A stretch of DNA of 44,485 bases, taken from positions 1 through 44,485 of the forward strand of contig JAFSCD010000004.1 in NCBI GenBank assembly GCA_017436955.1, given 5' to 3'. Made by a program: the position numbers and the translations under genes. The notes under the pieces were generated by a model, which had not been told where the DNA came from, ran no database searches, and saw only the letters and a list, made by a program, of their open reading frames with translations. Of this stretch, positions 1 through 12,740 are shown piece by piece (within the stretch, counting starts at the first letter, position 1; every line of letters begins with the position of its first letter). The DNA comes from Oscillospiraceae bacterium. Its GTDB lineage: Bacteria > Bacillota > Clostridia > Oscillospirales > Oscillospiraceae.

Positions 1-3
1 ATC

Positions 4-28
4 TGAGCAGAGCTAAATGCTCTGCTCA
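4..28. other. Perfect hairpin upstream of tRNA-Phe
   Basis: Arms of nine bases (4-12 and 20-28) enclose a seven-base loop. No T-tract follows, so this is not a clear terminator. It lies five bases before the tRNA-Phe gene and could be a processing or spacer hairpin in a tRNA transcript that begins outside the window. Similar short hairpins sit in the next two tRNA spacers (110-127 and 218-239). Confidence 0.45.
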
Positions 29-32
29 ATAT

Positions 33-108
<76 letters not shown>

Positions 109-131
109 TGGTTCCCTTTGGGAACCAAGAT

Positions 132-207
132 GCGGGTGTAGCTCATCCGGTAGAGCGCCACCTTGCCAAGGTGGAGGTAGCGAGTTCGAGCCTCGTCACC
201 CGCTCCA
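132..207 (+). tRNA. tRNA-Gly (anticodon GCC)
   Basis: The acceptor stem GCGGGTG pairs with the CACCCGC near the 3' end. The anticodon stem CCACC/GGTGG presents GCC at 165-167, the T-arm has the usual GTTCGAG, and CCA is encoded. It lies 23 bases after tRNA-Phe; the spacer holds a GGTTCCC/GGGAACC hairpin. Confidence 0.97.
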
Positions 208-250
208 AAAAAGATGAGGAACGCAGAAAAACGCGTTCCTTATTTCATAC

Positions 251-325
251 GGTACCGTAGCCAAGTGGTAAGGCACGAGTCTGCAAAACTCTGATCCGCC
301 AGTTCAAATCTGGCCGGTACCTCCA
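251..325 (+). tRNA. tRNA-Cys (anticodon GCA)
   Basis: The acceptor stem GGTACCG/CGGTACC, the anticodon loop CTGCAAA (GCA) and the discriminator T before the encoded CCA together identify a cysteine tRNA. It is the last tRNA of the cluster. A GGAACGC/GCGTTCC hairpin lies in the spacer before it and a strong terminator follows directly. Confidence 0.97.
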
Positions 326-326
326 G

Positions 327-360
327 AAAAGACAAGTCGAAAGACTTGTCTTTTCTTTTT
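327..360 (+). terminator. Rho-independent terminator of the tRNA cluster
   Basis: Twelve-base complementary arms (327-338 and 343-354) enclose a GAAA tetraloop and are followed by a T-rich tract to 360. The position directly after tRNA-Cys fits the end of the tRNA transcript. Confidence 0.92.
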
Positions 361-361
361 C

Positions 362-535
362 GATGAAATTCGTTCCTCACGGAACGAGTGGAATACGCTA
401 ACGCGTGTGAAATTGCCTACGGCAGTGAAATACGCCTGCGGCGTGTGAGAGAACGAATTTCATTTCACATTTTGTGACAGCAAAATATTTCATAATCCAT
501 AGGGATTTTTTCATATGGCTTAAGCCATATTTCAT
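362..535. repeat. Modular palindromic element: string of mini-hairpins inside a large inverted repeat
   Basis: A perfect 13-base inverted repeat (363-375 and 451-463) encloses four small hairpins at 371-386, 395-406, 414-424 and 432-444. Three more follow: 465-477, 494-507 and the 18-base perfect palindrome 513-530. Modules on the left are separated by TGAAAT-like spacers and those on the right by TTTCAT, so spacer orientation flips at the centre. No reading frame is present. This looks like an interspersed intergenic repeat of Clostridia; family membership is from memory and not confirmed. Confidence 0.7.
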
Positions 536-541
536 TTATTC

Positions 542-570
542 TTGCACCTTTTCCACATTTATGCTATACT
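542..570 (+). promoter_or_regulatory. Sigma-A promoter for the nicotinamidase-like gene
   Basis: TTGCAC (542-547), a 17-base spacer and TATACT (565-570) with an extended TGC before the -10 box. The predicted start of transcription is about 14 bases before the ribosome binding site AAGGCGGTGA of the gene at 591. Confidence 0.8.
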
Positions 571-590
571 GAAACCAAGGCGGTGATACT

Positions 591-1118
591 ATGAAACACA
601 TTTTGATCGTTGTTGATATTCAAAAGGATTTTGTCGATGGCGCGCTGGGAACGGCGGAAGCGGTTGCGATCCGGGAAAATGCCGCGAAGCTGATCAAAAA
701 CTTTGACGGCGATATTTTCGTTACTTACGATACCCATTTTGAAAATTATATGCAAACAGCAGAGGGCAGCAAGCTGCCTGTTCCGCATTGCATCAAGGGC
801 ACGGCAGGCTGGGAACTGGACAAGACCATAGCAAACGCGCTGGAGGGGAAGGATTACACCAAGGTGGAGAAAGTTACCTTCGGCTCGGTAGACCTGCCCC
901 GGCTGGTGAAGAACGCCGTGAGGGATGCGGATTTTGACATCACGCTGATCGGTCTTTGCACCGATATCTGCGTGGTTTCCAATGCGCTGATCTTAAAGGC
1001 GCATTTCCCTGAAAAGGAGATCTATGTGCCTGCCGATTGCTGTGCAGGCGTAACGGTGGACACCCACAATGCGGCACTGACAACGATGCGTATGTGCCAG
1101 ATCAATGTGATTGAATAA
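591..1118 (+). CDS. Nicotinamidase/isochorismatase-family cysteine hydrolase
   Basis: The 175-residue protein carries the full set of catalytic and metal residues of the family. D9 lies in VVDIQKDF, K94 in VEKVTF and C127 in TDIC, forming the Asp-Lys-Cys triad. D47 and H49 (YDTH) and H66 fit the metal site of PncA-type nicotinamidases. The segment HCIKGTAGWEL is typical of enzymes that convert nicotinamide to nicotinic acid in NAD salvage, although other amides are possible. It is a cytoplasmic protein of normal family length. The gene is monocistronic, with an extended -10 promoter and its own bidirectional terminator. The start is fixed by AAGGCGGTGA nine bases upstream. An NAD-salvage role is inferred from motifs only. 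Confidence 0.85.
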   Translation: MKHILIVVDIQKDFVDGALGTAEAVAIRENAAKLIKNFDGDIFVTYDTHFENYMQTAEGSKLPVPHCIKGTAGWELDKTIANALEGKDYTKVEKVTFGSVDLPRLVKNAVRDADFDITLIGLCTDICVVSNALILKAHFPEKEIYVPADCCAGVTVDTHNAALTTMRMCQINVIE

Positions 1119-1119
1119 C

Positions 1120-1147
1120 AAAAAGACCTCACTTGTGAGGTCTTTTT
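1120..1147. terminator. Bidirectional rho-independent terminator
   Basis: AAAAAGACCTCA and its exact complement enclose CTTG. An A-run on one side and a T-run on the other mean it can stop transcription in both directions. It isolates the hydrolase gene from the accessory block that begins at 1255. Confidence 0.9.
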
Positions 1148-1254
1148 GTGCTCTTCTTTTTATTTTTTATCATCCCCCCCTGCGAAAAAGCGAAGCTTGG
1201 GCTGTTCTGGTTATTACAGCAGAAAAATCCATCCCATAAGAACAGGAGGCACGG

Positions 1255-2916
1255 ATGAAGAAAACCATTGACCTTCATATCCCATTCGGTTTCCGTTTGG
1301 ACGATGAAATTGAATATATGAAAGTTTGGGAAGCGGAGAAATATCTGCTTTCCAAAAGAATCAGACGCTATACCAAGGCTATGCGGCACGGCGAGAATGC
1401 CGAGCTGCACGCAAGATGGCTGACCTGTCCCCATTGCGCAAGCCGTTACGCGGCCAACGCGGATTCACCCCTTTTCAACCGCTCGGCTGTCAGCGGTGTC
1501 TTTTCCGCACGGCTGACCAAAGCGCAGATCAGCAACTGGGCGTCGCTGCAAATGTCCATCTTTGACGAGGCGCAGATGCGTGAGCTGGTGATCGTGCCGC
1601 CCATTATGTCCCTTTCCAGATTCACTTGCCCCAAATGCGAGAATAAATCCTTCAAAAGCGCTGCCACACGGCACGTGCAGCTTTCTGCCGCCGGCAGGAA
1701 GATCATCCTCAAAAGCGAGGTCTCCCAGCTCGATGAGCTGCTGTCCCTGAACTGGGGCAAAATCAGCGAGATCAGGATCAGCTTCCCGATCTACGAGGTG
1801 CTGACCTTTGATCTGGGCAGAGGCGCTGTGTACATCAAAATGGAAAACGCCGAGGGAGAGATCCTGTGCCGGCGTGATATTACGGAAGCACCCGAGCTGC
1901 TTGCGGGCGGCGCTTCCTGTAAGCTCCTGACCCAGAACAAGCTGGTGCAGCGCAATATTTTGCGGCTGTTTCGGGAAATGTGGGGCGGGGAGCTGCCCGT
2001 CACCTGGCGGCAGATGGACGTACAGAAGCTGTTTCAGATGACCGTGTTTGTGGGCTATCCCAGGAGCTTTTACGCCAGTATTCCCTATGCGCAAAATTCC
2101 TTCCGGATCGACAAGGATTTCCGTGCCAGAGCAAGAAGGCTGCATCTGGCGGACAATTTGGATGCGCTCTGCCAGAATTCGGCGCTTCCGCAGATGAAAT
2201 CGTTGCGGCGTGCGCTGTTTGAGGATCCGGGGCTGTTCTTCTATCTTCCCGAAGCGGAGCTGGTCTGGGAAGCCATCGGCGATGCCAATCTGATGGTGCG
2301 CTTCCTGCAGCAGCCGCGTGTATACGAGGTGCTGTCGGAGCTGCATTTGCGTCCCGGCATTTTGCTGTTTCTGCGTGATTTCTGCGCTGTCAAGGGTGCG
2401 CCGGTTTTGCTGGCGAATATTGAGGACAACTGGAGCTTTTTGTGCAACAGAGCAATTGAATATTGCTGTATGAGTGAGCGGATGCGCCTGCAGACGCGGC
2501 AAAAGTGGGAGCATAATGGCGATCAGAAAAATTCGGACAGTATTTACTCCCTTCCTATGCGCCGTCCCGATGAGACCATCAAGGACTGCGTGATCGACGG
2601 CTTTACCTTTATGTGGCTGCGAAGCAGCAACGATTATGCTATTGCGGCGGAGCATCTGAACAACTGCCTGAGAGAATGGCGTCCCCACAATTCGCCCGTT
2701 GTGGGTGTCCGCAGGAAGGATAGGCTCGTGGCTGCCATTGAAATGTTCGAGGGAAAGATCGCCCAGGCACGGACCTATGACAACGGCGACATCAGCGCCA
2801 CGCCCGCTCTCAACGGGGCGTTTCAGAAATGGATACAGCGCTACAACTTAACGTGGTTTACCGAGGAAGATGATCTGCACCTGCGGCTGCCCGAGGACGC
2901 CGCCATACCGTTCTAA
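1255..2916 (+). CDS. PcfJ-domain-like protein with two N-terminal CxxC zinc pairs
   Basis: The 553-residue soluble protein has two CxxC pairs (C58/C61 and C125/C128), which suggests a split zinc ribbon. A long middle region has no motif I recognise. The C-terminal part (about 445-520) resembles PcfJ domains: an HLNNCL segment near 467-472, a basic strand, an AAIEMFEG strand, then IAQARTYDN near 502-510, matching the family's Cys...T-x-E...Q-x-x-x-x-N layout. PcfJ-like proteins occur on conjugative plasmids and other mobile DNA; their biochemical role is not known to me. The start has AGGAGGCACGG just upstream. A hairpin follows and the next gene has its own promoter, so it is probably a separate transcription unit at the edge of the accessory block. 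Confidence 0.6.
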   Translation: MKKTIDLHIPFGFRLDDEIEYMKVWEAEKYLLSKRIRRYTKAMRHGENAELHARWLTCPHCASRYAANADSPLFNRSAVSGVFSARLTKAQISNWASLQMSIFDEAQMRELVIVPPIMSLSRFTCPKCENKSFKSAATRHVQLSAAGRKIILKSEVSQLDELLSLNWGKISEIRISFPIYEVLTFDLGRGAVYIKMENAEGEILCRRDITEAPELLAGGASCKLLTQNKLVQRNILRLFREMWGGELPVTWRQMDVQKLFQMTVFVGYPRSFYASIPYAQNSFRIDKDFRARARRLHLADNLDALCQNSALPQMKSLRRALFEDPGLFFYLPEAELVWEAIGDANLMVRFLQQPRVYEVLSELHLRPGILLFLRDFCAVKGAPVLLANIEDNWSFLCNRAIEYCCMSERMRLQTRQKWEHNGDQKNSDSIYSLPMRRPDETIKDCVIDGFTFMWLRSSNDYAIAAEHLNNCLREWRPHNSPVVGVRRKDRLVAAIEMFEGKIAQARTYDNGDISATPALNGAFQKWIQRYNLTWFTEEDDLHLRLPEDAAIPF

Positions 2917-2942
2917 ACCGGCTGCAAAGCAGCCGGTTTCCT
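2915..2942 (+). terminator. Terminator-like hairpin after the PcfJ-like gene
   Basis: Eleven-base arms (2915-2925 and 2929-2939) with loop AAA begin inside the stop codon. The T-tract is short (TTTCCTT), so read-through into the next gene is possible. Confidence 0.6.
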
Positions 2943-2951
2943 TAATTGCAG

Positions 2952-2980
2952 TTGAGTTTTTCGACCCGAAATGCTATAAT
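2952..2980 (+). promoter_or_regulatory. Sigma-A promoter for the Card1-like gene
   Basis: TTGAGT (2952-2957), a 17-base spacer and a consensus TATAAT (2975-2980) with an extended TGC. The gene at 3013 follows with an AAGGAGAG ribosome binding site at 2998-3005. Confidence 0.85.
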
Positions 2981-3012
2981 AGGACAAAAGCTCGCGTAAG
3001 GAGAGAAATACT

Positions 3013-4269
3013 ATGACGTATATTGAGTTTTTTGACAGGCAATCGACGGAAAACGTCAGTGCCTGCCTGACCTATGCGCCCCAGCGCGTGATCTACATAG
3101 GCGACAATTCCAAGCTGATGAAGCGGTATATTGCCCGGTATCAGCGCGTATTTGCCGACCGGGGTCAGGAAATAGAGTTCCTTTTCAGGACCGTTTCCAA
3201 AAGTAATCTGGACGATGCGGTGGCGCTGCTGACGGAGCTGGTGGAGACCTACGACGATTGCGTGTTTGATATCACCGGCGGTGAGGAGCTGCTGATCCTG
3301 GCGCTGGGCGTCGTCTGCGCGCAGCACCCCGACAAAAACATCCAGATCCATAAGTTCAATCTGCGCAACAACGCCATCTACGATTACGATAAGGACGGAA
3401 AGACCATCTTCCGGGAAACGCCGGTATTGAGCGTGGAGGAAAATGTGCGGATCTACGGCGGCGATGTGGTCTATGGCGGCGTGGAGGAAGCGAAAACCTA
3501 CCGCTGGGACTTAAATGACGGATTTTTGCAGGATCTTTCGGTGATCTGGGAGTTGTGCAGGGACAACGTACGGCTGTGGAACATTCAGATCGGCATTTTT
3601 GCGGTGGCGGCGCTCATCGGCAGCACCGATGCGGATGGGCTGACGGTTACGGTTTCCCGGGCAGACCTGGATCGCTATATGCTCCAGAACAGAAATCAGT
3701 ACAGACCCGTAAAGAGCCTGATCGCGCAGCTGCGCAACGCCGGGCTGCTGACCGGCTACCGGGAGGATGCAACCGCCCTGACGGTCACCTTCAAGGATCC
3801 GCAGGTGAAGCGGTGCTTGACGAGAGCCGGACAAGCTCTGGAAATGAAGGTGTTCGTTACCGCGAAGCAGGTGCTGGACAAGGATGATATCCCGGTCTAC
3901 AACGATGCCATCAACGGCGTGCTGATCGATTGGGACGGCGAATTCCACGATGAGGAAGCCGAGGAATCTGTGGACACGGAAAACGAGATCGACGTGCTGC
4001 TGATGCACGATGTGATCCCGGTGTTCATCTCCTGCAAAAACGGCTACGTGACTTCCGACGAGCTGTATAAGCTGGATTCTGTGGCGGAACACTTCGGCGG
4101 ACAGTATGCGAAAAAGGTGCTGGTGGCCACATCCATCGACAGTATGGGCGAGGCAGGGAAGTACGTGCGCCAAAGGGCGAAGGATATGGATATCCGGCTG
4201 CTGGAGAACATTCAGGAGCTGGATGACGAAGCGCTGTCCAGAGCGCTGAAAAACCTCTGGAGCAACTAA
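3013..4269 (+). CDS. CARF-domain PD-(D/E)XK nuclease, Card1/Can2-like (DUF1887 family)
   Basis: The 418-residue protein shows the layout of Card1-type effectors. An N-terminal Rossmann-like CARF domain (1-135) has the DITGGEEL loop, with ITGG at 87-90, where family members hold cyclic oligoadenylate. A middle winged-helix-like segment spans about 170-280. The C-terminal nuclease fold has NEID (D327) and VFISCKNG (K342), then the helical KLDSVAEHFGG and a terminal RAKDMDI segment also seen in Card1. Known members are switched on by cA4 made by type III CRISPR complexes and cut DNA and RNA. Here the usual Glu of the E-x-K motif is Ser340, so chemistry may differ or another Glu (E325) may serve. 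No cas gene is in the window. It has its own promoter and terminator-like hairpin, directly before the Clp-FtsH fusion. Confidence 0.78.
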   Translation: MTYIEFFDRQSTENVSACLTYAPQRVIYIGDNSKLMKRYIARYQRVFADRGQEIEFLFRTVSKSNLDDAVALLTELVETYDDCVFDITGGEELLILALGVVCAQHPDKNIQIHKFNLRNNAIYDYDKDGKTIFRETPVLSVEENVRIYGGDVVYGGVEEAKTYRWDLNDGFLQDLSVIWELCRDNVRLWNIQIGIFAVAALIGSTDADGLTVTVSRADLDRYMLQNRNQYRPVKSLIAQLRNAGLLTGYREDATALTVTFKDPQVKRCLTRAGQALEMKVFVTAKQVLDKDDIPVYNDAINGVLIDWDGEFHDEEAEESVDTENEIDVLLMHDVIPVFISCKNGYVTSDELYKLDSVAEHFGGQYAKKVLVATSIDSMGEAGKYVRQRAKDMDIRLLENIQELDDEALSRALKNLWSN

Positions 4270-4288
4270 TTGAAAACAGAGCAAAAAA

Positions 4289-4323
4289 CCGGCGGTGATC
4301 GTGGATTTCCGCCGGTGCTTTGC
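4289..4323 (+). terminator. Hairpin after the Card1-like gene
   Basis: ACCGGCGG and CCGCCGGT (ends near 4317) pair around a 13-base loop, with an A-run before and TGCTTTGCC after. The T-tract is poor, so it may attenuate rather than fully stop transcription into the fusion protease gene. Confidence 0.5.
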
Positions 4324-4324
4324 C

Positions 4325-4353
4325 TTGACAAGTAAGCCAATGGAAACTATAAT
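4325..4353 (+). promoter_or_regulatory. Perfect consensus sigma-A promoter for the Clp-FtsH fusion gene
   Basis: TTGACA (4325-4330), exactly 17 bases and TATAAT (4348-4353). Both hexamers match the consensus at every base. The leader to the start at 4446 is about 85 bases long and ends in AAAAAGGAGAG. Such a promoter suggests strong constitutive expression unless a repressor acts. Confidence 0.92.
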
Positions 4354-4445
4354 AAAATGGTAAAAATGTACGATGGGCAGGTTGGGTCGATCCGGCTGAA
4401 AACCATCGCGATTTATGGATACCAACGGAAAAAGGAGAGACAATT

Positions 4446-7400
4446 ATGGCAGAAATGAAAACCAGTAAATTACTGACGATGCTTATGGACGCAGCCAGAA
4501 AGCTGGGCAACGCGAAGAATCCTCCCTTCACTGCGGAGCGGTTTTTGGTGGCGGTTCTGGATCAGATGAATGCCCCTGCGGATCAGGGCGCCGACTGTGA
4601 AGTGGCTGACGAACTGAAGACCTTAAGCGCCAAGATCGGAAAACTGGTGAAGGATACCAAGGCAGCCAGAGAGACCCTGATGTCCTACATCTGCCAGGAA
4701 AGCGGCAGAGTATTCCTGGACGATCTGTATATGAAGAATAAGATGCAGAAGGCGTCTGCCAGCGCGGAAAGCGCCGGATCGCCGCTGCTGGACGCGGTTA
4801 CGCTGATGACCTTTATCGAGGAGGATCCCAGCGAGACGATCCGTGATGCCTTCGCGAAGGAAGCTGCCGCCGCGGCAGAGCCTGCGGAGAAGGCCGATGA
4901 GCCGGCACCTGCCAAGGGCAACAGCATCCAGGCAGATCTGGAAGCGCTGGTCGCCGAAGCCAGGAGAAAAAAGGAAGCCGGTGAGCCGGCACCCGCTGAA
5001 ACGCCTGCGGAGCCGCCGGTAGCACCTCCCGTTGTGCCCAGCGTGGCACCGAAGGTGGAGACGAAGCCTGATGAAGGCGTAAAGACGGAAATGGGCGCCC
5101 TGGTTGCTGAGATCAAGCGCATCCGGTCGCAACTGAAGGAAAGCGTTTACGGTCAGGACAATGCCATCAACGTATTTGTCACCGGCTTTTTCCAGGCAAA
5201 TATGCTGTCGATGATCGACAAGTCCCGCAAGCGTCCCCGTGCGACCTTCCTGTTTGCAGGCCCTCCCGGTGTGGGTAAGACCTTCCTGGCGGAGAAGGTG
5301 GCAGAAACACTGCAGCTGCCGTTCCAGCGCTTCGATATGAGTGAATACTCCGATAAGGAAGCAAATCTGGAATTCTGCGGCTCCGATAAGGTCTATAAGG
5401 GCGCGAAGGAAGGTAATGTTACCGGCTTCGTGGCAGAGCACCCCAAGTGCGTGCTGCTGTTCGATGAGATCGAAAAGGCGCATATTTCCGTTATCCATCT
5501 GTTCCTGCAGATGCTGGACGCAGGCAGACTGCGCGACAACTTTACGGATAAGGAGATCTCCTTCTCCGATGCGATCATCATCCTGACCACCAACGCCGGC
5601 AGACAGCTGTATACCGAGAGCGAGACCGGCGATTTCTCCACCGTTTCCAGAAAGGTCATCATCAAGGCGCTGGAAACCGACGTGAATCCTTCCACCGGTG
5701 TGCCCTTCTTCCCGGGCGCCATTTGCTCCCGCTTTGCTTCCGGTAATGTGGTAATGTTCAACCACATCGGCGCTCACGATCTGCGCGCCATTGCCAAGAA
5801 GGAGATCCAGCGGCACGTAAAGAGCCTGGAGAAGGAATCCGGCATCCATATTGATATTGATGAACACGTTTATACCGCACTGCTGTTCTCGGAAGGCAGT
5901 AATGCCGATGCCAGAACCATTCGCGCCAGAGCGGAGACCTTCTTCAATGACGAGCTTTACGAGCTGCTGCGGCTGATCGCGTCCGATAAGGTCAAAACCA
6001 GTGTGGACAATGTGACGAACATCCGCATCGGCGTGGATCTGAACCAGACGAATGCCGACATCCGCGCTTTGTTTACCGCATCCGAGCGGACAAAGATCCT
6101 GATGGTGGCAAGCCCGGAAACCGTCGCCGCCTGCAAGGAAAAGGCACCGGAATTCGAGTTTGTCGGCGTACAGGATGCCGAGGAGGCTACCAAAGTATTC
6201 AAAAAGCAGAGCATTGATTTTGTTCTGCTGGATATGGCACACGGTGCGCCCGTGGCAGCGATGACGAATCTGAATATCGAGGACGTGGACTCTCCTGCCA
6301 GAGATTTCTTCAAGTTCCTGAAGGAGCAGCAGAGTGCCGTACCCGTATATTTGCTGGAGGATCACGGCATCACCCTGAACGAGGAGGAGCGGATCTCCTT
6401 TATGCGCCAGGGCGTGCGCGGCGTTCTGGGCGTGAGCGACACCGAAGCGCCTTTTGCCGCACAGCTGGATAATATTGCCTCCATTTTGCATCAGCAGGCA
6501 AGTATGGTCAAGCTGGCAAGGGAGAATAAGCTGGTGTCCTTTGAAACGGCGCAGAGCGTCAGCGAGAACGGTCAGTCAGCAGGTATCAAGCTGTTTGACT
6601 TTGCCATGGCAGTTGCCGTGGATTCCGAGGATGCCAAGAATATTATGAGCTCCATGTCCAAGCCCAACGTGCATTTTGCCGACGTCATCGGTGCGGAGGA
6701 TGCCAAGAAAGAGCTTACATATTTCGTTGAATATCTGAAAAATCCCAAGAAGTATATGGGTACCGGCGTGAAAGCGCCGAAGGGCGTTATCCTCTACGGA
6801 CCTCCCGGCACCGGCAAGACGATGCTGGCGAAGGCGATGGCCTGCGAAGCTGGCGTGACCTTTATCGCAGCCGAGGGCAATCAGTTCCTGCAGCGTTGGG
6901 TCGGTGCAGGCCCCGAGAAGGTACACGAGCTGTTCAAGACGGCACGTAAGTACGCACCCTCCATCCTCTTTGTAGACGAGATCGACGCCATCGCCAAGGA
7001 ACGTCAGGGCGGCAGCGATTCCGGCTCCAACGGCGAGGACGTACTGACCGCGTTCCTGGCAGAGATGGATGGCTTTGTGAGCGATCCGTCCAAGCCCGTG
7101 TTTGTGCTGGCGGCCACCAATTTCGATGTGGAGCCCGGCGGAAGAAAAAGCCTGGATCCTGCGCTGATGCGCCGCTTCGACAGAAGAGTGTACATTGATC
7201 TGCCCAACAAGGAAGAGAGAATCCGCTTCCTGAATATGAAGATCGCCAAGAACCAGGCACTGCAGATCTCTGCGCAGCAGATCGACAGCCTCGCTATGAG
7301 ATCCACCGGCATGAGCCTGGCAGAGCTGGACTCCGTGGTGGAGCTGGCACTCCGCTCCGCCATCAGAGAGGGCAGCACCGTCGTAAACGATGACATTCTG

Positions 7401-7985
7401 GAGGAAGCCTTCGAGACCTTCAACGGCGGCGAAGTGAAGAAGTGGGGCATTTCCCAGCTGGAGTGCACCGCAAGACACGAGGCAGGTCATGCGCTGCTGT
7501 ACTGGCTCAACGGCGATACACCTTCTTACCTGACTATCGTTGCCCGTGGCAATCACGGCGGCTATATGCGCCACGCAGACAAGGAGGACAAGCAGCTCTA
7601 CACCATTGATGATATGCTTGGTCTTATCCGAACCTCTCTGGGCGGTCGGGCTGCGGAACTCGTTTACTACGGTGAGCGCAACGGCGTCTCCACCGGTGCG
7701 TCCGGTGACCTTGCCAATGCAACGCGGACGGCGCAGCGGATGATCTGCGCTTACGGTATGGATGCGGACTTTGGTCTTGCTGTCGTACCCACTGCCGCCA
7801 TCACCGACGGCCCTCTGGCCGTTGAGATCAGAGCCGCTGTCAACCGTATTCTGAATGAACAGCTGGCGGAAGCCGTGCGGCTGATCTCCGAAAACAAGAG
7901 CAAGATCGACGCTCTGGTGGAAGCACTGATGTCCAGAAACCATCTGAACGGCGTCGAGATCGACGAAATCCTGTCCAAGGCTTAA
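4446..7985 (+). CDS. Giant AAA+ fusion: ClpB/C-like unfoldase, receiver-like domain and FtsH-type AAA+ M41 metalloprotease
   Basis: The 1179-residue protein joins parts normally found in separate proteins. Residues 1-140 resemble a Clp N-domain, followed by a Pro/Ala/Glu-rich linker (about 140-215). A ClpB D2-like AAA+ module has Walker A GPPGVGKT (272-279), DMSEY and Walker B LLFDEIEKAH (337-346). Residues about 548-690 resemble a response-regulator receiver fold (ILMVAS, VLLDMA596-region, PVYLLED). The last part is a complete FtsH core: GPPGTGKT (785-792), ILFVDEID (840-847), the arginine motif DPALMRRFDRR, protease motif HEAGH (1011-1015) and the third zinc ligand D1088 in GASGDLANAT. FtsH's N-terminal membrane helices are absent, so it is probably cytosolic. 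It heads the strong promoter at 4325, and the membrane protein follows after 33 bases. Role inferred: regulated protein unfolding and degradation. Confidence 0.88.
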   Translation: MAEMKTSKLLTMLMDAARKLGNAKNPPFTAERFLVAVLDQMNAPADQGADCEVADELKTLSAKIGKLVKDTKAARETLMSYICQESGRVFLDDLYMKNKMQKASASAESAGSPLLDAVTLMTFIEEDPSETIRDAFAKEAAAAAEPAEKADEPAPAKGNSIQADLEALVAEARRKKEAGEPAPAETPAEPPVAPPVVPSVAPKVETKPDEGVKTEMGALVAEIKRIRSQLKESVYGQDNAINVFVTGFFQANMLSMIDKSRKRPRATFLFAGPPGVGKTFLAEKVAETLQLPFQRFDMSEYSDKEANLEFCGSDKVYKGAKEGNVTGFVAEHPKCVLLFDEIEKAHISVIHLFLQMLDAGRLRDNFTDKEISFSDAIIILTTNAGRQLYTESETGDFSTVSRKVIIKALETDVNPSTGVPFFPGAICSRFASGNVVMFNHIGAHDLRAIAKKEIQRHVKSLEKESGIHIDIDEHVYTALLFSEGSNADARTIRARAETFFNDELYELLRLIASDKVKTSVDNVTNIRIGVDLNQTNADIRALFTASERTKILMVASPETVAACKEKAPEFEFVGVQDAEEATKVFKKQSIDFVLLDMAHGAPVAAMTNLNIEDVDSPARDFFKFLKEQQSAVPVYLLEDHGITLNEEERISFMRQGVRGVLGVSDTEAPFAAQLDNIASILHQQASMVKLARENKLVSFETAQSVSENGQSAGIKLFDFAMAVAVDSEDAKNIMSSMSKPNVHFADVIGAEDAKKELTYFVEYLKNPKKYMGTGVKAPKGVILYGPPGTGKTMLAKAMACEAGVTFIAAEGNQFLQRWVGAGPEKVHELFKTARKYAPSILFVDEIDAIAKERQGGSDSGSNGEDVLTAFLAEMDGFVSDPSKPVFVLAATNFDVEPGGRKSLDPALMRRFDRRVYIDLPNKEERIRFLNMKIAKNQALQISAQQIDSLAMRSTGMSLAELDSVVELALRSAIREGSTVVNDDILEEAFETFNGGEVKKWGISQLECTARHEAGHALLYWLNGDTPSYLTIVARGNHGGYMRHADKEDKQLYTIDDMLGLIRTSLGGRAAELVYYGERNGVSTGASGDLANATRTAQRMICAYGMDADFGLAVVPTAAITDGPLAVEIRAAVNRILNEQLAEAVRLISENKSKIDALVEALMSRNHLNGVEIDEILSKA

Positions 7986-8018
7986 TTGCCTGTATCAAGA
8001 TAAAAAGGGGACACAACG

Positions 8019-10862
8019 ATGGATTTAACACAGAAAATATTTGCAGGAGCCTTTGTGATCGCGTCCTGGCTGGTACTGGTCGCGGCCATCATTTGGCTAT
8101 GCAAGCGAACCGCGAAAAACAGGCAAGCGCCTGAAAAACAAAGCAGGACCGGAATCAATACCGCCCTGGCGGTGGCCGGGTGGCTCTTGTTGTCGATTTT
8201 CCTGCTTCGGTTTGCTGTTGGATACTATTCTGTCGTTGTGTCCGAAAACCCGTCACAGGAGCTGGAGCCGGCAGAAAAATTTGCAGAAAGTATTTTCAAA
8301 GCCATCCGGACATTCAGCCTGGAGGAAGAATACGACGCATATATCCTTGGAATCAAGGGCTTGCTTGCCGCGCTGATCCCTGCCGGCTGCTGGTTTTTGC
8401 CCGTTGCCCAAGCGATCATGGTCGTGTTCGCTACGCTGCAGAATCTGGCTGCGCCCGTTTTCGGCGGCGCCATCATTCTGGAAATACTGGCAAGCAAATT
8501 CCCCAAAATCCAGCTGTGGTTCGTCAATCATTTCAGCAAGCGCCTGAAATGCTATTTCAGCGAATTGAATCCGGCGTCTCTAGCGCTGGCAAAAAGCCGT
8601 TATTATGCGAAAGAGGGCAAAAAGCCCATCCTGATCTTCACGGACACCTATGTGGATGACGAGGAGGAAAAGGAATCGGAGCTGTTGCTGGAAGCAAAAA
8701 AGTTCGGCGCGATTTGCCTTCAGGATGACCTGATCCATGTTGCCAAGACGGAAAAAGGCGACCGCGAATTCTACCTGATGGACCAAAACGAGCTTGGAAA
8801 CCTGCAAACCCTGATGGGTCTGGTGGAAGAGCAAAATGCGAAATATCTCAAGAATGCCGTAGTTTATCTGTTCGTCCAAACCGATACCTACGTGAAAATT
8901 GAAAAACAGATCAACAAGAAGCTGGGCGAAGAAAAATACGCTTCGCTGTTCAAAGACGGCGAAAAGCCCACCATCATCCCCATCAATGCCTATCGTAATT
9001 TGGTGCAGAATCTGTTTGTGGATCTGCCACTGTTTGAGCCGCTGATCCGCAAGCAGGATAAAACGAAGCTGAACCTGACGATTCTGGGCAACGGCACCAT
9101 CGGTACAGAAGCCTTCTTAAGCGCGTATTGGTTTGGACAGATGCTGATCAGCCGCAGCGAAGGCGGCTGGGCAGACGAGTGCGAACTGACCATCAACATC
9201 GGCTCCAACGACACGGAGGAGGCGTTCTGGTCGAAGATCGACTATATCAATTCCGAGATTCGGGACACTGTCCGGGTGCTTCGGGCAGACGAATGGGAGG
9301 AAACGCCCGATCTGCTTATGTGCGTCGAAAAGCCCAACAAACCCTACTGCAGCGTCCGGTACGTAAAGGTGGACGTGAAGGTGGACGGCTTTTGGGACAG
9401 CAAGGATGCCCGGGAGCAGAAGCTGCTGGAGTCGGATTATTTCATCGTGGCCTTGGGTAATGATGCGGATAATATTTCCATCGCGGAAAAGCTCCGCCGT
9501 TTAATTGGCAAAAAGCATCTGGAAGAGGCCGTATGCGATACGGACACGAAAGACAGCGACGATGTGGTGATCACCTATGCGGTGTTTGATTCCGCACTGG
9601 TGGAAATGCTCAATGAGAAAAAGGCGTACCAGTGCAGGCAGAAGGGCGTTGCGGACATTTATATGTACGCCTTCGGCAGTATCGAGCAGGTGTACAGCTA
9701 CGCCAATATCAATATGACCAAGAGCGCGCTGCTGGCGATCGGAACGGGCAAAGCCTATGACAATGCCCAAAGTCAGCTGATCGTCGACAACAAAAAGCGG
9801 AAGAATGATGAAAGCCGCAATTACAGCTATTGGGCAGACCTGGCAAGAGCGATGCACATCCGCTACAAGGCGTTTTCCCTGGGCTTGATCCGGGAGTCGG
9901 TTTTTGACCATGCCCTTACGCAGCGCGATCACGAAAAATATATCACAGAGCGGTGCAGGCTCTATAAGCAGATAGCGAAAAAAGAGGACGCGCCCGAACA
10001 GGAGCTTGTAGCTGCAGAAGCGAAAAAGCATCTGCTGGCGTGGCTGGAGCATCGGCGCTGGACGGCGTTTACCCGTACGATGGGCTATCAGTTTACCGCA
10101 GAATTCAAGAAGAATCTCCAGCTGAATGGAGCAAATCATAAGAATATGGAGCTGAAGCTCCATCCGTGCCTGGTGGAGGCGGAAAAGCCAAAGCAGGATG
10201 CCGAAAGCACCTACCTGCGGGCGAACCTGGGCGGTCTTTTCGAGGATCTGTCTGTGACCGTAAGCGAAGAACTGCCGGGTGCATACCGGATCACCGTGGC
10301 GGACGTTTTTGGAAAATTGGACGACGCAAAGACAGTAGCCTTTGCCTTAAAGTCAGGAGCATGTGACCCCTACCGGTTTTTGATCGCCGCACTGGAAAGC
10401 AACAGCCGTTTGCAGGAGAAGCTGGAAACACTGCTGAAAACCGAGAAATCCGCTTGCGTTGCTTTGACTGCGCAGCTGCCTGACAGCGGTGAGATCTGGC
10501 CGGTCACGATTCAGGTGAAGGGAAATGGCAACAAGAAGAAGCTGCTTGCCGTATTTAAGGTAGCAGACCTGAATACAAAGCAGCTGATCACCCTGCTGCG
10601 GATGCAAAAAAACCATTTTGAGGCGAAAATGCAGGCTGCTGCGGCGGTGGATCAGACCGGCTTCGATCCCCTGGATCAACTGACGGTAAATTGGTGCCAC
10701 GAAGCCGCGCGCTACAGCCTGGTGCAGATGAAAGATATGCTGAAGCGGCTGGAAAGCAACGAGGATCTGCAGACGCTGAAAGAAACCTACGCTGCAATTT
10801 GGTACGGAGTCGGTAGCTACGACTTTAAGACGTACGACTATTATGCCTTTGATTTTGAATAG
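8019..10862 (+). CDS. Four-helix membrane protein with Rossmann/TrkA-like domains and an RyR-like region
   Basis: The 947-residue protein has hydrophobic segments at about 8-28, 46-66, 112-138 and 141-158, then a large cytoplasmic part. KKPILIFTD (201-209) begins a nucleotide-binding-type fold. GNGTIGTE (357-364) is a glycine-rich dinucleotide-binding loop as in TrkA-N domains, and ESDYFIVALGND (471-482) ends that Rossmann unit. HLLAWLEHRRWTAFTRTMGY (671-690) resembles the core of RyR repeats, which in bacteria often follow TrkA-like or other nucleotide-binding domains. The C-terminal 250 residues are not recognised. GGGGACACAACG precedes the start. I infer a membrane sensor or effector, perhaps a channel gated by a nucleotide ligand. 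The next gene encodes a clean RyR domain and starts ten bases after the stop. Confidence 0.65.
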   Translation: MDLTQKIFAGAFVIASWLVLVAAIIWLCKRTAKNRQAPEKQSRTGINTALAVAGWLLLSIFLLRFAVGYYSVVVSENPSQELEPAEKFAESIFKAIRTFSLEEEYDAYILGIKGLLAALIPAGCWFLPVAQAIMVVFATLQNLAAPVFGGAIILEILASKFPKIQLWFVNHFSKRLKCYFSELNPASLALAKSRYYAKEGKKPILIFTDTYVDDEEEKESELLLEAKKFGAICLQDDLIHVAKTEKGDREFYLMDQNELGNLQTLMGLVEEQNAKYLKNAVVYLFVQTDTYVKIEKQINKKLGEEKYASLFKDGEKPTIIPINAYRNLVQNLFVDLPLFEPLIRKQDKTKLNLTILGNGTIGTEAFLSAYWFGQMLISRSEGGWADECELTINIGSNDTEEAFWSKIDYINSEIRDTVRVLRADEWEETPDLLMCVEKPNKPYCSVRYVKVDVKVDGFWDSKDAREQKLLESDYFIVALGNDADNISIAEKLRRLIGKKHLEEAVCDTDTKDSDDVVITYAVFDSALVEMLNEKKAYQCRQKGVADIYMYAFGSIEQVYSYANINMTKSALLAIGTGKAYDNAQSQLIVDNKKRKNDESRNYSYWADLARAMHIRYKAFSLGLIRESVFDHALTQRDHEKYITERCRLYKQIAKKEDAPEQELVAAEAKKHLLAWLEHRRWTAFTRTMGYQFTAEFKKNLQLNGANHKNMELKLHPCLVEAEKPKQDAESTYLRANLGGLFEDLSVTVSEELPGAYRITVADVFGKLDDAKTVAFALKSGACDPYRFLIAALESNSRLQEKLETLLKTEKSACVALTAQLPDSGEIWPVTIQVKGNGNKKKLLAVFKVADLNTKQLITLLRMQKNHFEAKMQAAAAVDQTGFDPLDQLTVNWCHEAARYSLVQMKDMLKRLESNEDLQTLKETYAAIWYGVGSYDFKTYDYYAFDFE

Positions 10863-10872
10863 GAGAGCGCAA

Positions 10873-11154
10873 ATGTACAAACCGAAGCCAATTGATACCG
10901 GTGCGGTAGAATTGCCCCAGGAGCTGATCGACCTTACGGAGCAGCTGGCAGAGAATGTCCACGAAAACTGGGCTGCCGGTCGGATCGCCGACGGCTGGAC
11001 TTATGGCGAGAAGCGCGATGACGAGAAGCGGACAACGCCCTGCCTGGTGCCTTATGCGGAGCTGACCGAGGAGGAACGGGAGTATGACCGCCATACCGCG
11101 CTGCAGACCCTGAAAATGATTCTGGCATTGGGCTATACCATTGAAAAGAAATAA
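10873..11154 (+). CDS. Stand-alone RyR-domain protein
   Basis: The 93-residue protein is almost wholly one RyR (ryanodine-receptor repeat) domain. The markers are LAENVHENWAAGRI, GWTYG, RDD, the TTPCLVPY strand and the closing EREYDRHTALQTLKMILALGY. Small bacterial RyR proteins look just like this. A ligand role is proposed for the family in nucleotide-centred conflict systems but is not settled. The start at 10873 is chosen because AGGAG lies seven bases upstream and the homology begins there; an in-frame ATG at 10843 would overlap the previous gene. It is closely coupled to the membrane protein gene before it. Confidence 0.85.
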   Translation: MYKPKPIDTGAVELPQELIDLTEQLAENVHENWAAGRIADGWTYGEKRDDEKRTTPCLVPYAELTEEEREYDRHTALQTLKMILALGYTIEKK

Positions 11155-11170
11155 GCATATGATGTGATTG

Positions 11171-11202
11171 GAAATCGCAGTATCGAAAGATCCTGCGATT
11201 TC
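11171..11202 (+). terminator. Hairpin between the RyR and DnaA-like genes
   Basis: GAAATCGCAG and CTGCGATTTC pair around a 12-base loop, and a pyrimidine-rich TTCCTTTCC follows. It may act as a partial terminator or as an mRNA-stability element that sets lower expression of the two distal genes. Confidence 0.5.
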
Positions 11203-11230
11203 TTCCTTTCCAAATATCGGGAGGTGGAAT

Positions 11231-11881
11231 ATGGCGGGTAAGAATAATTTTGACAGCTTTATAGTCAGCGCCTGCAATCGGCAGGCGCATGCGGCGTGTA
11301 TGCAGATCGCCACAGCTGCGGACAGTGGGATCACAGTGCTGTACGGACCGTCCTCCTGCGGCAAGAGCCATCTGCTGGGCGCGCTTGCGGAAAAATATAG
11401 CGAGAATTTTCCGGAGAAAAAAGTGCTGGAAACGACCCCGGAGGCTATTTTCGATGGGTATCTCAAGGCGCTGAAGGAAGGTACATCCTTGGATTATGGC
11501 AAGCGGATTTGCAGCTATGATCTGCTGATCGTGGATAATGCGCAGTTCCTTGCAGGCAAAACGGCGACGCAGGGGGAAATGGCGAACTGGCTCTGCCAAA
11601 TGTACGGCGCAGGAAAGACCGTTGTAATGGCGATGGATTGTCCGCCGGCGTGCTGTGAAACGATGCTGGAGAAAATCAGCAGCAGATGCTTTGACGGGTG
11701 GCGGATCGTGAAACTGCTTGCACCGGATCGGCAGCTTCGGGCAGAATATGTGAAGCGGCTGTGCCGGGAATATTCGATTTCGCTGTCTACCAGGGCGACC
11801 GATCATCTGATTTTCTCCCGGAATATTCCATTTGGCGCCATCAGAGGAGAGCTTATGAAGCTTCGTTTGCTGCAGGAGTAA
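11231..11881 (+). CDS. DnaA domain III-like AAA+ ATPase without a DNA-binding domain
   Basis: The 216-residue protein follows DnaA domain III step by step. NNFDSFIVSACNRQAHAA matches the DnaA entry segment, Walker A is GPSSCGKS (39-46), Walker B region LLIVDNAQFLAGK (98-110) parallels DnaA's LLIDDIQFLAGK, and a late segment FGAIRGELMKLRLL (203-216) parallels the sensor 2 region. It stops where the DNA-binding domain IV should begin, as in Hda/DiaA-type DnaA paralogues. The second acidic Walker B residue is Asn103, so hydrolysis may be weak. Start at 11231 is chosen for the GAGGTGG site and the homology; an earlier in-frame start at 11168 would run through the hairpin. I infer a loader or regulator, not replication initiation. 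Confidence 0.72.
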   Translation: MAGKNNFDSFIVSACNRQAHAACMQIATAADSGITVLYGPSSCGKSHLLGALAEKYSENFPEKKVLETTPEAIFDGYLKALKEGTSLDYGKRICSYDLLIVDNAQFLAGKTATQGEMANWLCQMYGAGKTVVMAMDCPPACCETMLEKISSRCFDGWRIVKLLAPDRQLRAEYVKRLCREYSISLSTRATDHLIFSRNIPFGAIRGELMKLRLLQE

Positions 11882-11977
11882 ATCGGTAAGCCCGTAACCG
11901 GCAGGATCTGCTGGCGCTTCTCGGTCAAGAAAAATAGTGGAAAGATCAACACAAGAATAGGGAAAGGTGGACAGGGT

Positions 11978-12694
11978 ATGCTGGGCTTCAAAATACCGGA
12001 AGAACGCAGGATCGAATGGTTTTGCAAAAAGGCCGCAAGGTGGGATCCCTTCGAGATCCGGAGATATGAGGAATTTTACAAGCGGTTTTTGAAGGAAAAA
12101 GCAGTACCGGAAAAGAAAAAACTGGGCTTAAAGCTGATCGTGATCTCGGATACACACGGCTATCTGGCGTTTGACAAAAGCCGCTTTCCAACCTTTATGG
12201 ATACGGTGGCGGACTTTGATCTGTGCCTGCTGCTGGGCGACGTGACAGCCGCGGAGATGCCGGTGATCCTGGATTGCATACCCCGGGAGAAGATCCTGGC
12301 GATCAAGGGGAACCACGATGCGTTTGATATTTACAGCCGCTTTGGTGTGCAGGAAATATCCGGCAGGGTCTGCGAGTATCAGGGCGTACGCTTTGCCGGG
12401 CTGGACGGCAGCTTCCGCTACAAAAAGGAGCGGTTTCCGTCTCATACGCAGTATGAAAGCCTGCAGTTTGCCCGGGCTATGCCGGAAGCGGACGTACTGC
12501 TTTCCCATGACGTAATGCTGTCGGACTTTTACCGTGACCCTGCACATTCCGGGCTGATCGGAATTACGTACTATGTATTCAAGCGCGGTGTGCAGTGGCA
12601 TTTCCACGGGCATATACATAAGTCTTATGAACGCTGCTACGAAAACGGAACCAGAGAAAAAAGCGTGTATCAGTGCGAATATATAGAGATATGA
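11978..12694 (+). CDS. Calcineurin-like metallophosphoesterase
   Basis: The 238-residue protein has every metal motif of the calcineurin-like phosphoesterase fold: SDTHG (D58, H60), LLGDV (D88), GNHD (111-114), SHD (H177) and HFHGHIH (H212, H214). A 50-residue basic N-terminal segment precedes the domain and is unusual for the YfcE-like group. Substrates of this family are phosphodiesters or phosphomonoesters, including cyclic nucleotides. Placed at the end of a CARF/RyR gene block, it could remove a nucleotide signal, but that is inference. GGGAAAGGTGG precedes the start. It is the last + strand gene of the block and is followed by a perfect palindrome and a repeat. Confidence 0.82.
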   Translation: MLGFKIPEERRIEWFCKKAARWDPFEIRRYEEFYKRFLKEKAVPEKKKLGLKLIVISDTHGYLAFDKSRFPTFMDTVADFDLCLLLGDVTAAEMPVILDCIPREKILAIKGNHDAFDIYSRFGVQEISGRVCEYQGVRFAGLDGSFRYKKERFPSHTQYESLQFARAMPEADVLLSHDVMLSDFYRDPAHSGLIGITYYVFKRGVQWHFHGHIHKSYERCYENGTREKSVYQCEYIEI

Positions 12695-12708: not shown

Positions 12709-12740
12709 AAAGGACTTCACGAAATTTCGTGAAGTCCTTT
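12709..12740. terminator. Perfect 32-base palindrome ending the accessory block
   Basis: Sixteen-base arms (AAAGGACTTCACGAAA and its complement) meet with no spacer. An A-run before and TTT after give some terminator character in both directions. Confidence 0.7.

Follow-up and report, generated by a model that had tools for sequence, protein, structure and literature searches.

In the animal ryanodine receptor RyR1, Trp881 stacks on adenine while Arg885 and Arg896 contact phosphates (PMC12627627, available part), and phage proteins of the RyR kind (RyDEP) destroy or sequester immune signals made by TIR enzymes, in a 2026 preprint that raises the question for animal RyRs as well; among eight RyR homologs examined in it, six bound the signals and cleavage was seen for none (PMC13232231, available part). 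The literature searched gave no function for RyR proteins inside bacteria; of these papers, PMC8195603 mentions ryanodine in two references only and PMC9503650 not at all. Here we describe a locus of an Oscillospiraceae bacterium (GenBank assembly GCA_017436955.1, G000 in our numbering of genomes, a draft that is 82% complete) in which a small RyR gene stands with genes for a CARF nuclease, a Clp–FtsH fusion protease and a membrane protein that has RCK (TrkA-like) domains and an RyR-like domain of its own. It lies in contig JAFSCD010000004.1, positions 1 to 44,485; this whole stretch of 44,485 nucleotides is called the window below. The block comprises six open reading frames, all on the + strand between 3013 and 12694, with an isochorismatase-like gene and a 553-residue gene upstream and a terminator-like hairpin downstream.

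An earlier note on this DNA had taken the six genes for one system answering a nucleotide signal. The six collinear frames with their named domains are borne out by Pfam, PADLOC and NCBIfam matches, and a nucleotide signal behind the block is supported as likely. The linked set is smaller than was claimed: the CARF, fusion, membrane protein and RyR genes are not a chance cluster, but this does not extend to the DnaA-like and phosphoesterase genes that close the block. On the genes and domains observed, their kept catalytic residues, co-occurrence and recurrent neighbours, and the RCK-type fold of the membrane protein model, we tentatively read the four core genes, with somewhat less than even confidence, as one instance of a modular nucleotide-sensing network for conflict or stress response, whose proposed working joins a TIR signal, RyR sensing, an RCK membrane protein and regulated proteolysis. 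We file the core block with nucleotide-centred conflict or stress systems; no description of its gene set, or of a cellular RyR–TIR–RCK system, was found in the open-access literature searched. The core features are as follows.

3013..4269, + strand: CARF-PDDEXK nuclease P0001, Can2/Card1/DUF1887 type (Pfam, PADLOC, family profile)
4446..7985, + strand: fusion protease P0002, with N-terminal helical domain, ClpA-like AAA, pseudo-receiver, FtsH AAA and M41 zinc protease in one soluble chain (Pfam/NCBIfam, alignment, hydropathy, model)
6078..6521, + strand: receiver-like domain of the fusion, residues about 545-692 (profile A4, structure model)
8019..10862, + strand: membrane protein P0003, with N-terminal membrane helices, tandem RCK domains, an RyR-like domain and an extra low-confidence C-terminal region (model, family profile)
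10026..10178, + strand: RyR-like domain of the membrane protein, residues about 670-720 (family profile, alignment)
10873..11154, + strand: stand-alone RyR domain protein P0004, 93 residues, with a longer frame from 10843 (Pfam RyR, E 3.8e-37; alignment to RyR1/RyR2 repeats)

The four core proteins

P0004 aligns to animal RyR repeats over almost its full length, and residues H40, W43, R47 and D82 are kept in all 14 proteins aligned. H40, W43 and D82 have the spacing of H75, W78 and D117 in RyDEP, and alignment to the RyR1 chain of 4uwa places Trp881, Arg885 and Arg896 of human RyR1 at W43, R47 and R58, a matching that involves a one-residue numbering offset and is our own reading. Because the His/Asp dyad and the Trp are kept but the position of RyDEP His100 is mostly Thr, and because six of the eight homologs tested bind and none cleaves, ligand binding is a safer guess for P0004 than cleavage. 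The RyR family (PF02026) was matched in 32 of 394 genomes of the order, 15 of them below E 1e-20, and in none of 14 control genomes.

The second RyR domain, which the earlier note had assigned to the membrane protein, stands by the family profile and fails in Pfam: this part of P0003 is divergent, with no Pfam RyR match, while the profile finds RyR structures (best E 1.7e-5), and among the 19 aligned sequences H678 is kept in 18 and both W681 and H715 in 19. The model of P0003 is a tandem RCK gating-ring fold by comparison with GsuK, KtrAB, TrkHA, BK and CASTOR in the PDB. A GxGxxG motif in the second RCK domain is kept nearly throughout (G357 in 19/19, G359 in 18/19, G362 in 17/19), and the GsuK and TrkA entries are, by title, complexes with NAD, ADP or ATP. 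The membrane part gave no Pfam match above cut-off. Membrane-protein matches occur in 26 of the 394 genomes at E 1e-5, with eight below 1e-50.

The fusion comprises Pfam AAA_2, AAA and Peptidase_M41, and its model has a mean pLDDT of 81.9, with a disordered linker between the ClpA-like motor and the N-terminal helical domain, which we read as Clp-N-like from the arrangement. Both Walker sites, R909/R910, the HExxH motif and the distal Asp are all kept in the 20 sequences aligned, the window's included (alignment A2, from which the truncated fusion of G675 was excluded). By hydropathy P0002 has no membrane segment, hence no N-terminal membrane anchor of the FtsH style; two of the 20 have one marginal hydrophobic segment each, at residues 276-294 or 334-352. 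A domain missed by the earlier note separates the AAA motors; we assign it as receiver-like because its profile A4 matches response regulators in the PDB (ArcA first, E 0.007; another third, E 0.015) and the model has five beta-alpha units. The assignment is not clean, with designed proteins also among the top six PDB matches and a comparison with a single response regulator by hhalign not significant (probability 0.8%); Asp596 is Asp in 18 of the 20. Such a Clp–receiver–FtsH architecture is unusual for a protease.

The Card1-like match of P0001 falls just below cut-off in Pfam (E 1.3e-5), and PADLOC gives CARF4-PDDEXK at E 4.6e-30. A family profile of 14 CARF proteins, in all of which N324, E325, D327 and S340-C341-K342 are invariant, matches Can2 (7bdv, E 5e-11, the best PDB match) and VC1899. 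Cas10 (PF22335) was not found in G000, within the limits of an 82% complete draft, nor in six of the seven genomes tested, and control matches came up in 5 of 14 genomes; type III CRISPR was rejected as signal source, there being no Cas10 in G000. CARF relatives were found in 28 of 245 genomes, and 23 CARF neighbourhoods, from 20 of these 28 plus G700, were compared; eight have a module partner within three genes, sigma/anti-sigma-like genes counted. G000 itself has a second CARF nuclease (contig C8:46526-47734), 33% identical, with no recognised partner.

Recurrence and co-occurrence

The fusion was found in 13 of the 394 genomes of the order and in 3 of 391 of the class, G000 included in both, and overall at 21 loci in 20 genomes, 11 of them close (at least 47% identity) and 10 more distant. 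It had been set beforehand that the block would count as a chance cluster if the fusion rarely sat beside the other genes. The linkage is partial: CARF, membrane protein or RyR lies within three genes at 6 of the 21 loci, all six among the 11 close ones (the window, G080, G075, G629, G527 and G062). The combinations vary, with RyR, fusion and membrane protein together in G075 and G080, fusion and membrane protein in G629, and CARF and fusion in G527 and G062; loci lacking the fusion join CARF, membrane protein and RyR in G560 and G700, and CARF and RyR in G553. In nine of the 15 genomes with strong RyR matches, the RyR gene has CARF, fusion or membrane protein no more than three genes away on its own strand. 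G724 has a weak membrane-protein relative third from RyR on the opposite strand, and no module partner was recognised beside RyR in G745 and G528. In G724 a 1505-residue STAND protein of DUF4062/NACHT type also adjoins the RyR frame (L215 4278-8795).

Presence in the same genome points the same way. By one-sided Fisher tests over the 394 genomes, the fusion (13 genomes) shares 12 genomes with any membrane-protein match (26; p 5e-15), six with the strong membrane protein (p 9e-9), eight with any RyR match (32; p 8e-7) and seven with strong RyR (15; p 3.6e-8), and the strong membrane protein (8) shares six with strong RyR (15; p 2.7e-8), all p-values that ignore relatedness and use "strong" cut-offs fixed after the lists were seen. 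The seven genomes with fusion and strong RyR span six families.

Mobile elements were searched in part. The fusion had no match at E 1e-80 in plasmids and the membrane protein none in phages, RyR and CARF having been searched in neither. Against viral contigs (600 stretches, best 80 of 151 relatives) the best fusion match covers only residues 739-1177, the FtsH part, and for the membrane protein none of 28 pattern matches was confirmed. In a scan of genome contigs (best 80 of 589 stretches), two of those 80 were long fusion matches. At one distant fusion (L125 1890-8395), protein kinase and PP2C phosphatase genes follow.

TIR, NADAR and sigma-like neighbours

Four of the 15 strong-RyR genomes (G080, G519, G805 and G697, the first two also among the nine with a partner) have a TIR gene no more than three genes from RyR, adjoining it in G080, G805 and G697 and standing two genes away in G519, next to the membrane protein. 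The RyR gene of G805 is flanked by two TIR genes, one of them a tubulin-TIR fusion (Tubulin/FtsZ-like plus TIR, L221 7071-8186), and that of G062 is directly followed by a gene for a DarT1-type NADAR (ADP-ribose) antitoxin (L217 7170-8114). TIR also adjoins the membrane protein in G711 and is two genes from it in G810, and it lies two or three genes from a distant fusion in RUG781 and G762. G000 has four TIR places, none on the window's contig or on C12. Elsewhere in G000 (L262 6395-12865), a TIR protein of about 2000 residues has, on the other strand, a neighbour related to the YbjN gene that precedes distant fusions.

A second recurrent neighbour is a divergent sigma-like gene followed by a gene for a small H-x3-C-x2-C protein. 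Genomes in which the pair precedes the fusion are G629, G062 and G423; it precedes CARF in G576 and G062 and a membrane-protein relative in G527, and in G629 C44 the small protein is found ahead of CARF without the sigma-like gene. The assignments are below curated cut-offs: NCBIfam gives sigma70-ECF at E 1.6e-5 to 0.02 for four of five sigma-like genes and SigM at 0.02 for the fifth, and anti-sigma models at E 0.002 to 0.15 for all three small genes given, while Pfam has no match for 3/3 of the former and no anti-sigma match for 4/4 of the latter, and the best PDB match of the sigma-like genes is SigW at E 0.25. Their position near the fusion in relatives suggests a transcriptional arm driven by the protease.

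Of 20 chosen genomes searched with a profile, nine have the sigma-like gene, including G000, where it lies on contig C18 and shares 54% identity over 266 residues with its counterpart upstream of the G629 fusion. The order there (L359 1-7737) is sigma-like gene, small zinc anti-sigma-like gene, two unassigned genes from the family found ahead of the fusion in G423, G681 and G711, a vWA-like gene (our reading of a motif) and Tubulin_2. With the pair on C18 and the core block in the window, G000 therefore holds both arms, apart. A YbjN_A label for the small pre-fusion genes of G681, G711 and G423 was dropped, the four scanned having no family match at the limits used (best DUF4250, E 0.02); PF10722 YbjN was found for the one neighbour of a distant fusion that was scanned. 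In G724 (L215 10513-16998), genes that look vWA-like and tubulin-like come after a weak membrane-protein relative, resembling those on C18. In the place of the fusion, an AAA protein of 659-671 residues follows the sigma/anti-sigma-like pair in G560 and G700, or the pair plus CARF in G576 (L244 5083-9416, L361 3853-6969, L362 1202-4837); the one scanned has Pfam AAA plus AAA_lid_6.

Other genes and features of the block

The remaining features of the block are these.

2952..2980, + strand: promoter-like site before the CARF nuclease, TTGAGT-17-TATAAT (10/12 consensus matches only)
4325..4353, + strand: perfect sigma-70 promoter-like site before the fusion protease (12/12 matches)
11231..11881, + strand: DnaA-ATPase-like protein P0005, with a longer frame from 11168 (Bac_DnaA, E 8e-29)
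11978..12694, + strand: calcineurin-like phosphoesterase P0006 (Metallophos_2, E 2.4e-9)
12709..12740, unstranded: bidirectional terminator-like hairpin closing the block (hairpin scan)

BLAST at E 1e-3 gave no match to either the DnaA-like or the phosphoesterase gene at the 38 other loci compared. Relatives of the DnaA-like protein, found in 10 of 13 other genomes tested, are matches of only 23-30% identity; on these two results the gene was rejected as a part of the module, which the earlier note had made it, and is probably a passenger. The phosphoesterase, to which a reset role had been given, is less one-sided. Its closest relatives (G075, G553) are on contigs other than the module's, but a weak match (30% over 66 residues) lies four genes from the CARF gene of G585, and look-alikes of the calcineurin type, by our reading of motifs, stand two genes away from RyR in G697 and two away from CARF in G629 C44; its membership is unproven.

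The earlier note had short gaps throughout. The CARF gene is set apart from the rest, with 176 bases to the fusion and a promoter-like site in the gap. Since promoter-like sites are not enriched as a class (4 in the scanned region against 6.9, standard deviation 2.5, in shuffles), two transcription units are backed by the quality of the 12/12 site alone. By ribosome-binding-site spacing, the RyR gene more likely starts at 10873 (93 residues) and the DnaA-like gene at 11231 (216 residues). The base composition of the block resembles its surroundings. Upstream, the gene at 591-1118 reads to us as isochorismatase-like, and the 553-residue protein at 1255-2916, which adjoins the CARF gene and has zinc-ribbon-like cysteines, had no family match above cut-off. 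A second copy of the locus in G000 was considered and rejected as contig overlap: the last 11,386 bases of C12 equal window 1-11,386 at 99.94%. The overlap being unjoined, C12 continues the window upstream.

Proposed working and rival explanations

What the RyR, TIR and protease associations establish is anatomy and association only, and the ligand, channel activity, protease substrate, order of events and antiviral purpose in the following scheme are what we infer. TIR enzymes, encoded elsewhere in G000 and adjacent in some relatives, would make an ADP-ribose-type signal from NAD+, to be bound by the RyR domains in both the membrane protein and the small RyR protein, possibly as a heterodimer mimicking the R12 unit of animal RyRs with its two repeats. 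As in RCK channels gated by nucleotides, the tandem RCK ring would then shift the membrane part into another state, and the small RyR protein might, like phage RyDEP, terminate the signal as well. The fusion would carry out ATP-driven, regulated removal of a protein substrate, most likely the small zinc-finger anti-sigma-like protein whose gene lies near that of the fusion in relatives, and loss of this protein would free its sigma factor. The CARF nuclease would be a second effector answering a nucleotide ligand. A bolder version, which we consider distinctly doubtful, is an immune channel of the RyR kind: cyclic ADP-ribose (cADPR), made from NAD+ by TIR enzymes, would act on the RyR domain of the tandem-RCK channel-like protein to open or close it, the small RyR protein would serve as partner or off-switch, and the Clp–receiver–FtsH protease would free a dedicated sigma factor. 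If true, this would be a prokaryotic counterpart of animal cADPR-to-ryanodine-receptor signalling.

A good deal weighs against the network reading. All four core genes were seen together at the window locus only; 15 of the 21 fusion loci have no CARF, membrane protein or RyR within three genes, though some contigs end early, and none was recognised at any of the 10 distant fusions, just as 15 of the 23 CARF loci lack a recognised partner. Neither TIR nor the sigma/anti-sigma pair was found in the window's block, and TIR genes are common (four in G000; 4 of 14 control genomes), with no background rate for TIR neighbours. At the residue level, the potassium filter pattern is in none of the 19 membrane-protein sequences, the window's membrane protein has Gly for the aligned Asp, where the alignment is unreliable, and the position of the phosphate-binding His100 of RyDEP is Thr in P0004 and in 11 of 14, His in three. 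Phage or plasmid association was not found in limited searches. To these are added the limits already given for the Fisher tests and for the sigma and anti-sigma assignments.

A rival reading is that two unrelated modules share a neighbourhood, a sigma switch worked by regulated proteolysis (sigma-like gene, zinc anti-sigma-like gene, small unassigned genes and fusion, sometimes with CARF) and a separate RCK–RyR–TIR membrane module, with the window holding both; we hold this to be somewhat unlikely. The sigma/anti-sigma-like pair does stand with the fusion without RyR in G423 and G062, RyR or the membrane protein stands with TIR without the fusion in G519 (C116), G711 (C3) and G810, and fusion and RyR are on separate contigs in G629, G681, G519 and G062. 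However, the two sets are joined in the window, G075 and G080 and, for fusion and membrane protein, G629; CARF bridges both (G560, G700 and G553; G527 and G062), the sigma/anti-sigma-like pair lies beside a membrane-protein relative in G527, and 12 of the 13 fusion genomes have a membrane-protein relative.

An improbable alternative is housekeeping or envelope stress with no role in defence, in which an RCK-gated ion or osmotic regulator senses NAD or ADP(-ribose), a soluble FtsH-like protease serves quality control, the sigma factor answers stress and the CARF protein senses a metabolite. Sigma factor genes with zinc anti-sigma genes are typical of stress regulons, the ligands in the GsuK and TrkA entries would suit such a regulator, and the missing phage or plasmid link, in limited searches, and a base composition like that of the surroundings fit it too; the patchy occurrence of the fusion (13/394) across many families, the TIR and NADAR neighbours in relatives and the CARF nuclease do not. 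That the six genes are independent and clustered by chance is very improbable and already largely refuted for four of the six: the DnaA-like and phosphoesterase genes do lack matches at the 38 other loci, and most CARF relatives examined are solitary, but pairs and triples recur in different families and gene orders, and the co-occurrence tests agree.

Comparison with known systems

P0001 shares CARF and PDDEXK with Can2/Card1, but its neighbours are RyR, a protease and, in relatives, the sigma-like pair, with no Cas10 in G000. In Thoeris a TIR gene is adjacent to its effector, whereas in G000 no TIR place is on the window's contig or C12. The CalpL–CalpT–CalpS system reportedly consists of a SAVED-Lon protease, an anti-sigma and a sigma factor. 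As in Calp, the fusion is a protease tied to nucleotide-signalling genes and, in relatives (G062, G629, G423), near a sigma/anti-sigma-like pair; it differs in being an FtsH-type metalloprotease with Clp motor and receiver, and in the window the pair is not adjacent. SAVED was not found among the best 25 of 48 Pfam families listed for the fusion, whose peptidase is M41, and an NCBIfam Lon match was set aside, its best stretch being residues 265-384 in the AAA part. The FtsH ternary systems (Kaur et al. 2020, PMC7159879, available part) likewise place an FtsH-type AAA in a predicted conflict system, but their first AAA is an inactive domain of FtsH type and they include MoxR-vWA genes, whereas the first AAA of the fusion is ClpA-like with intact Walker motifs, and no MoxR or vWA was found in the seven window proteins scanned (for P0002, among the matches listed), the rest of the window lying outside the scan.

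Like GsuK, KtrAB, TrkHA, BK and CASTOR, P0003 has membrane helices followed by two Rossmann RCK domains; unlike them, it has no potassium filter and has an extra RyR-like domain. P0004 shares with RyDEP the PF02026 domain and, at equal spacing, the catalytic His/Asp and adenine-stacking Trp (H40, W43, D82), while the phosphate-coordinating H100 is replaced by Thr in it and in 11 of 14; moreover, RyDEP is a phage gene, and P0004 is a cellular gene beside immune and signalling genes, joined to an RCK–RyR membrane protein (PMC13232231, available part). With animal RyR Repeat12 it shares Trp881, Arg885 and Arg896, the tandem repeats of a 5000-residue channel being represented here by one small protein plus a C-terminal domain on an RCK protein (PMC12627627, available part). 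Bacteria thus have RyR genes of their own next to TIR, NADAR and a channel-like RCK protein ending in an RyR domain, and therefore the signal question raised for animal RyRs can be tested in a small system.

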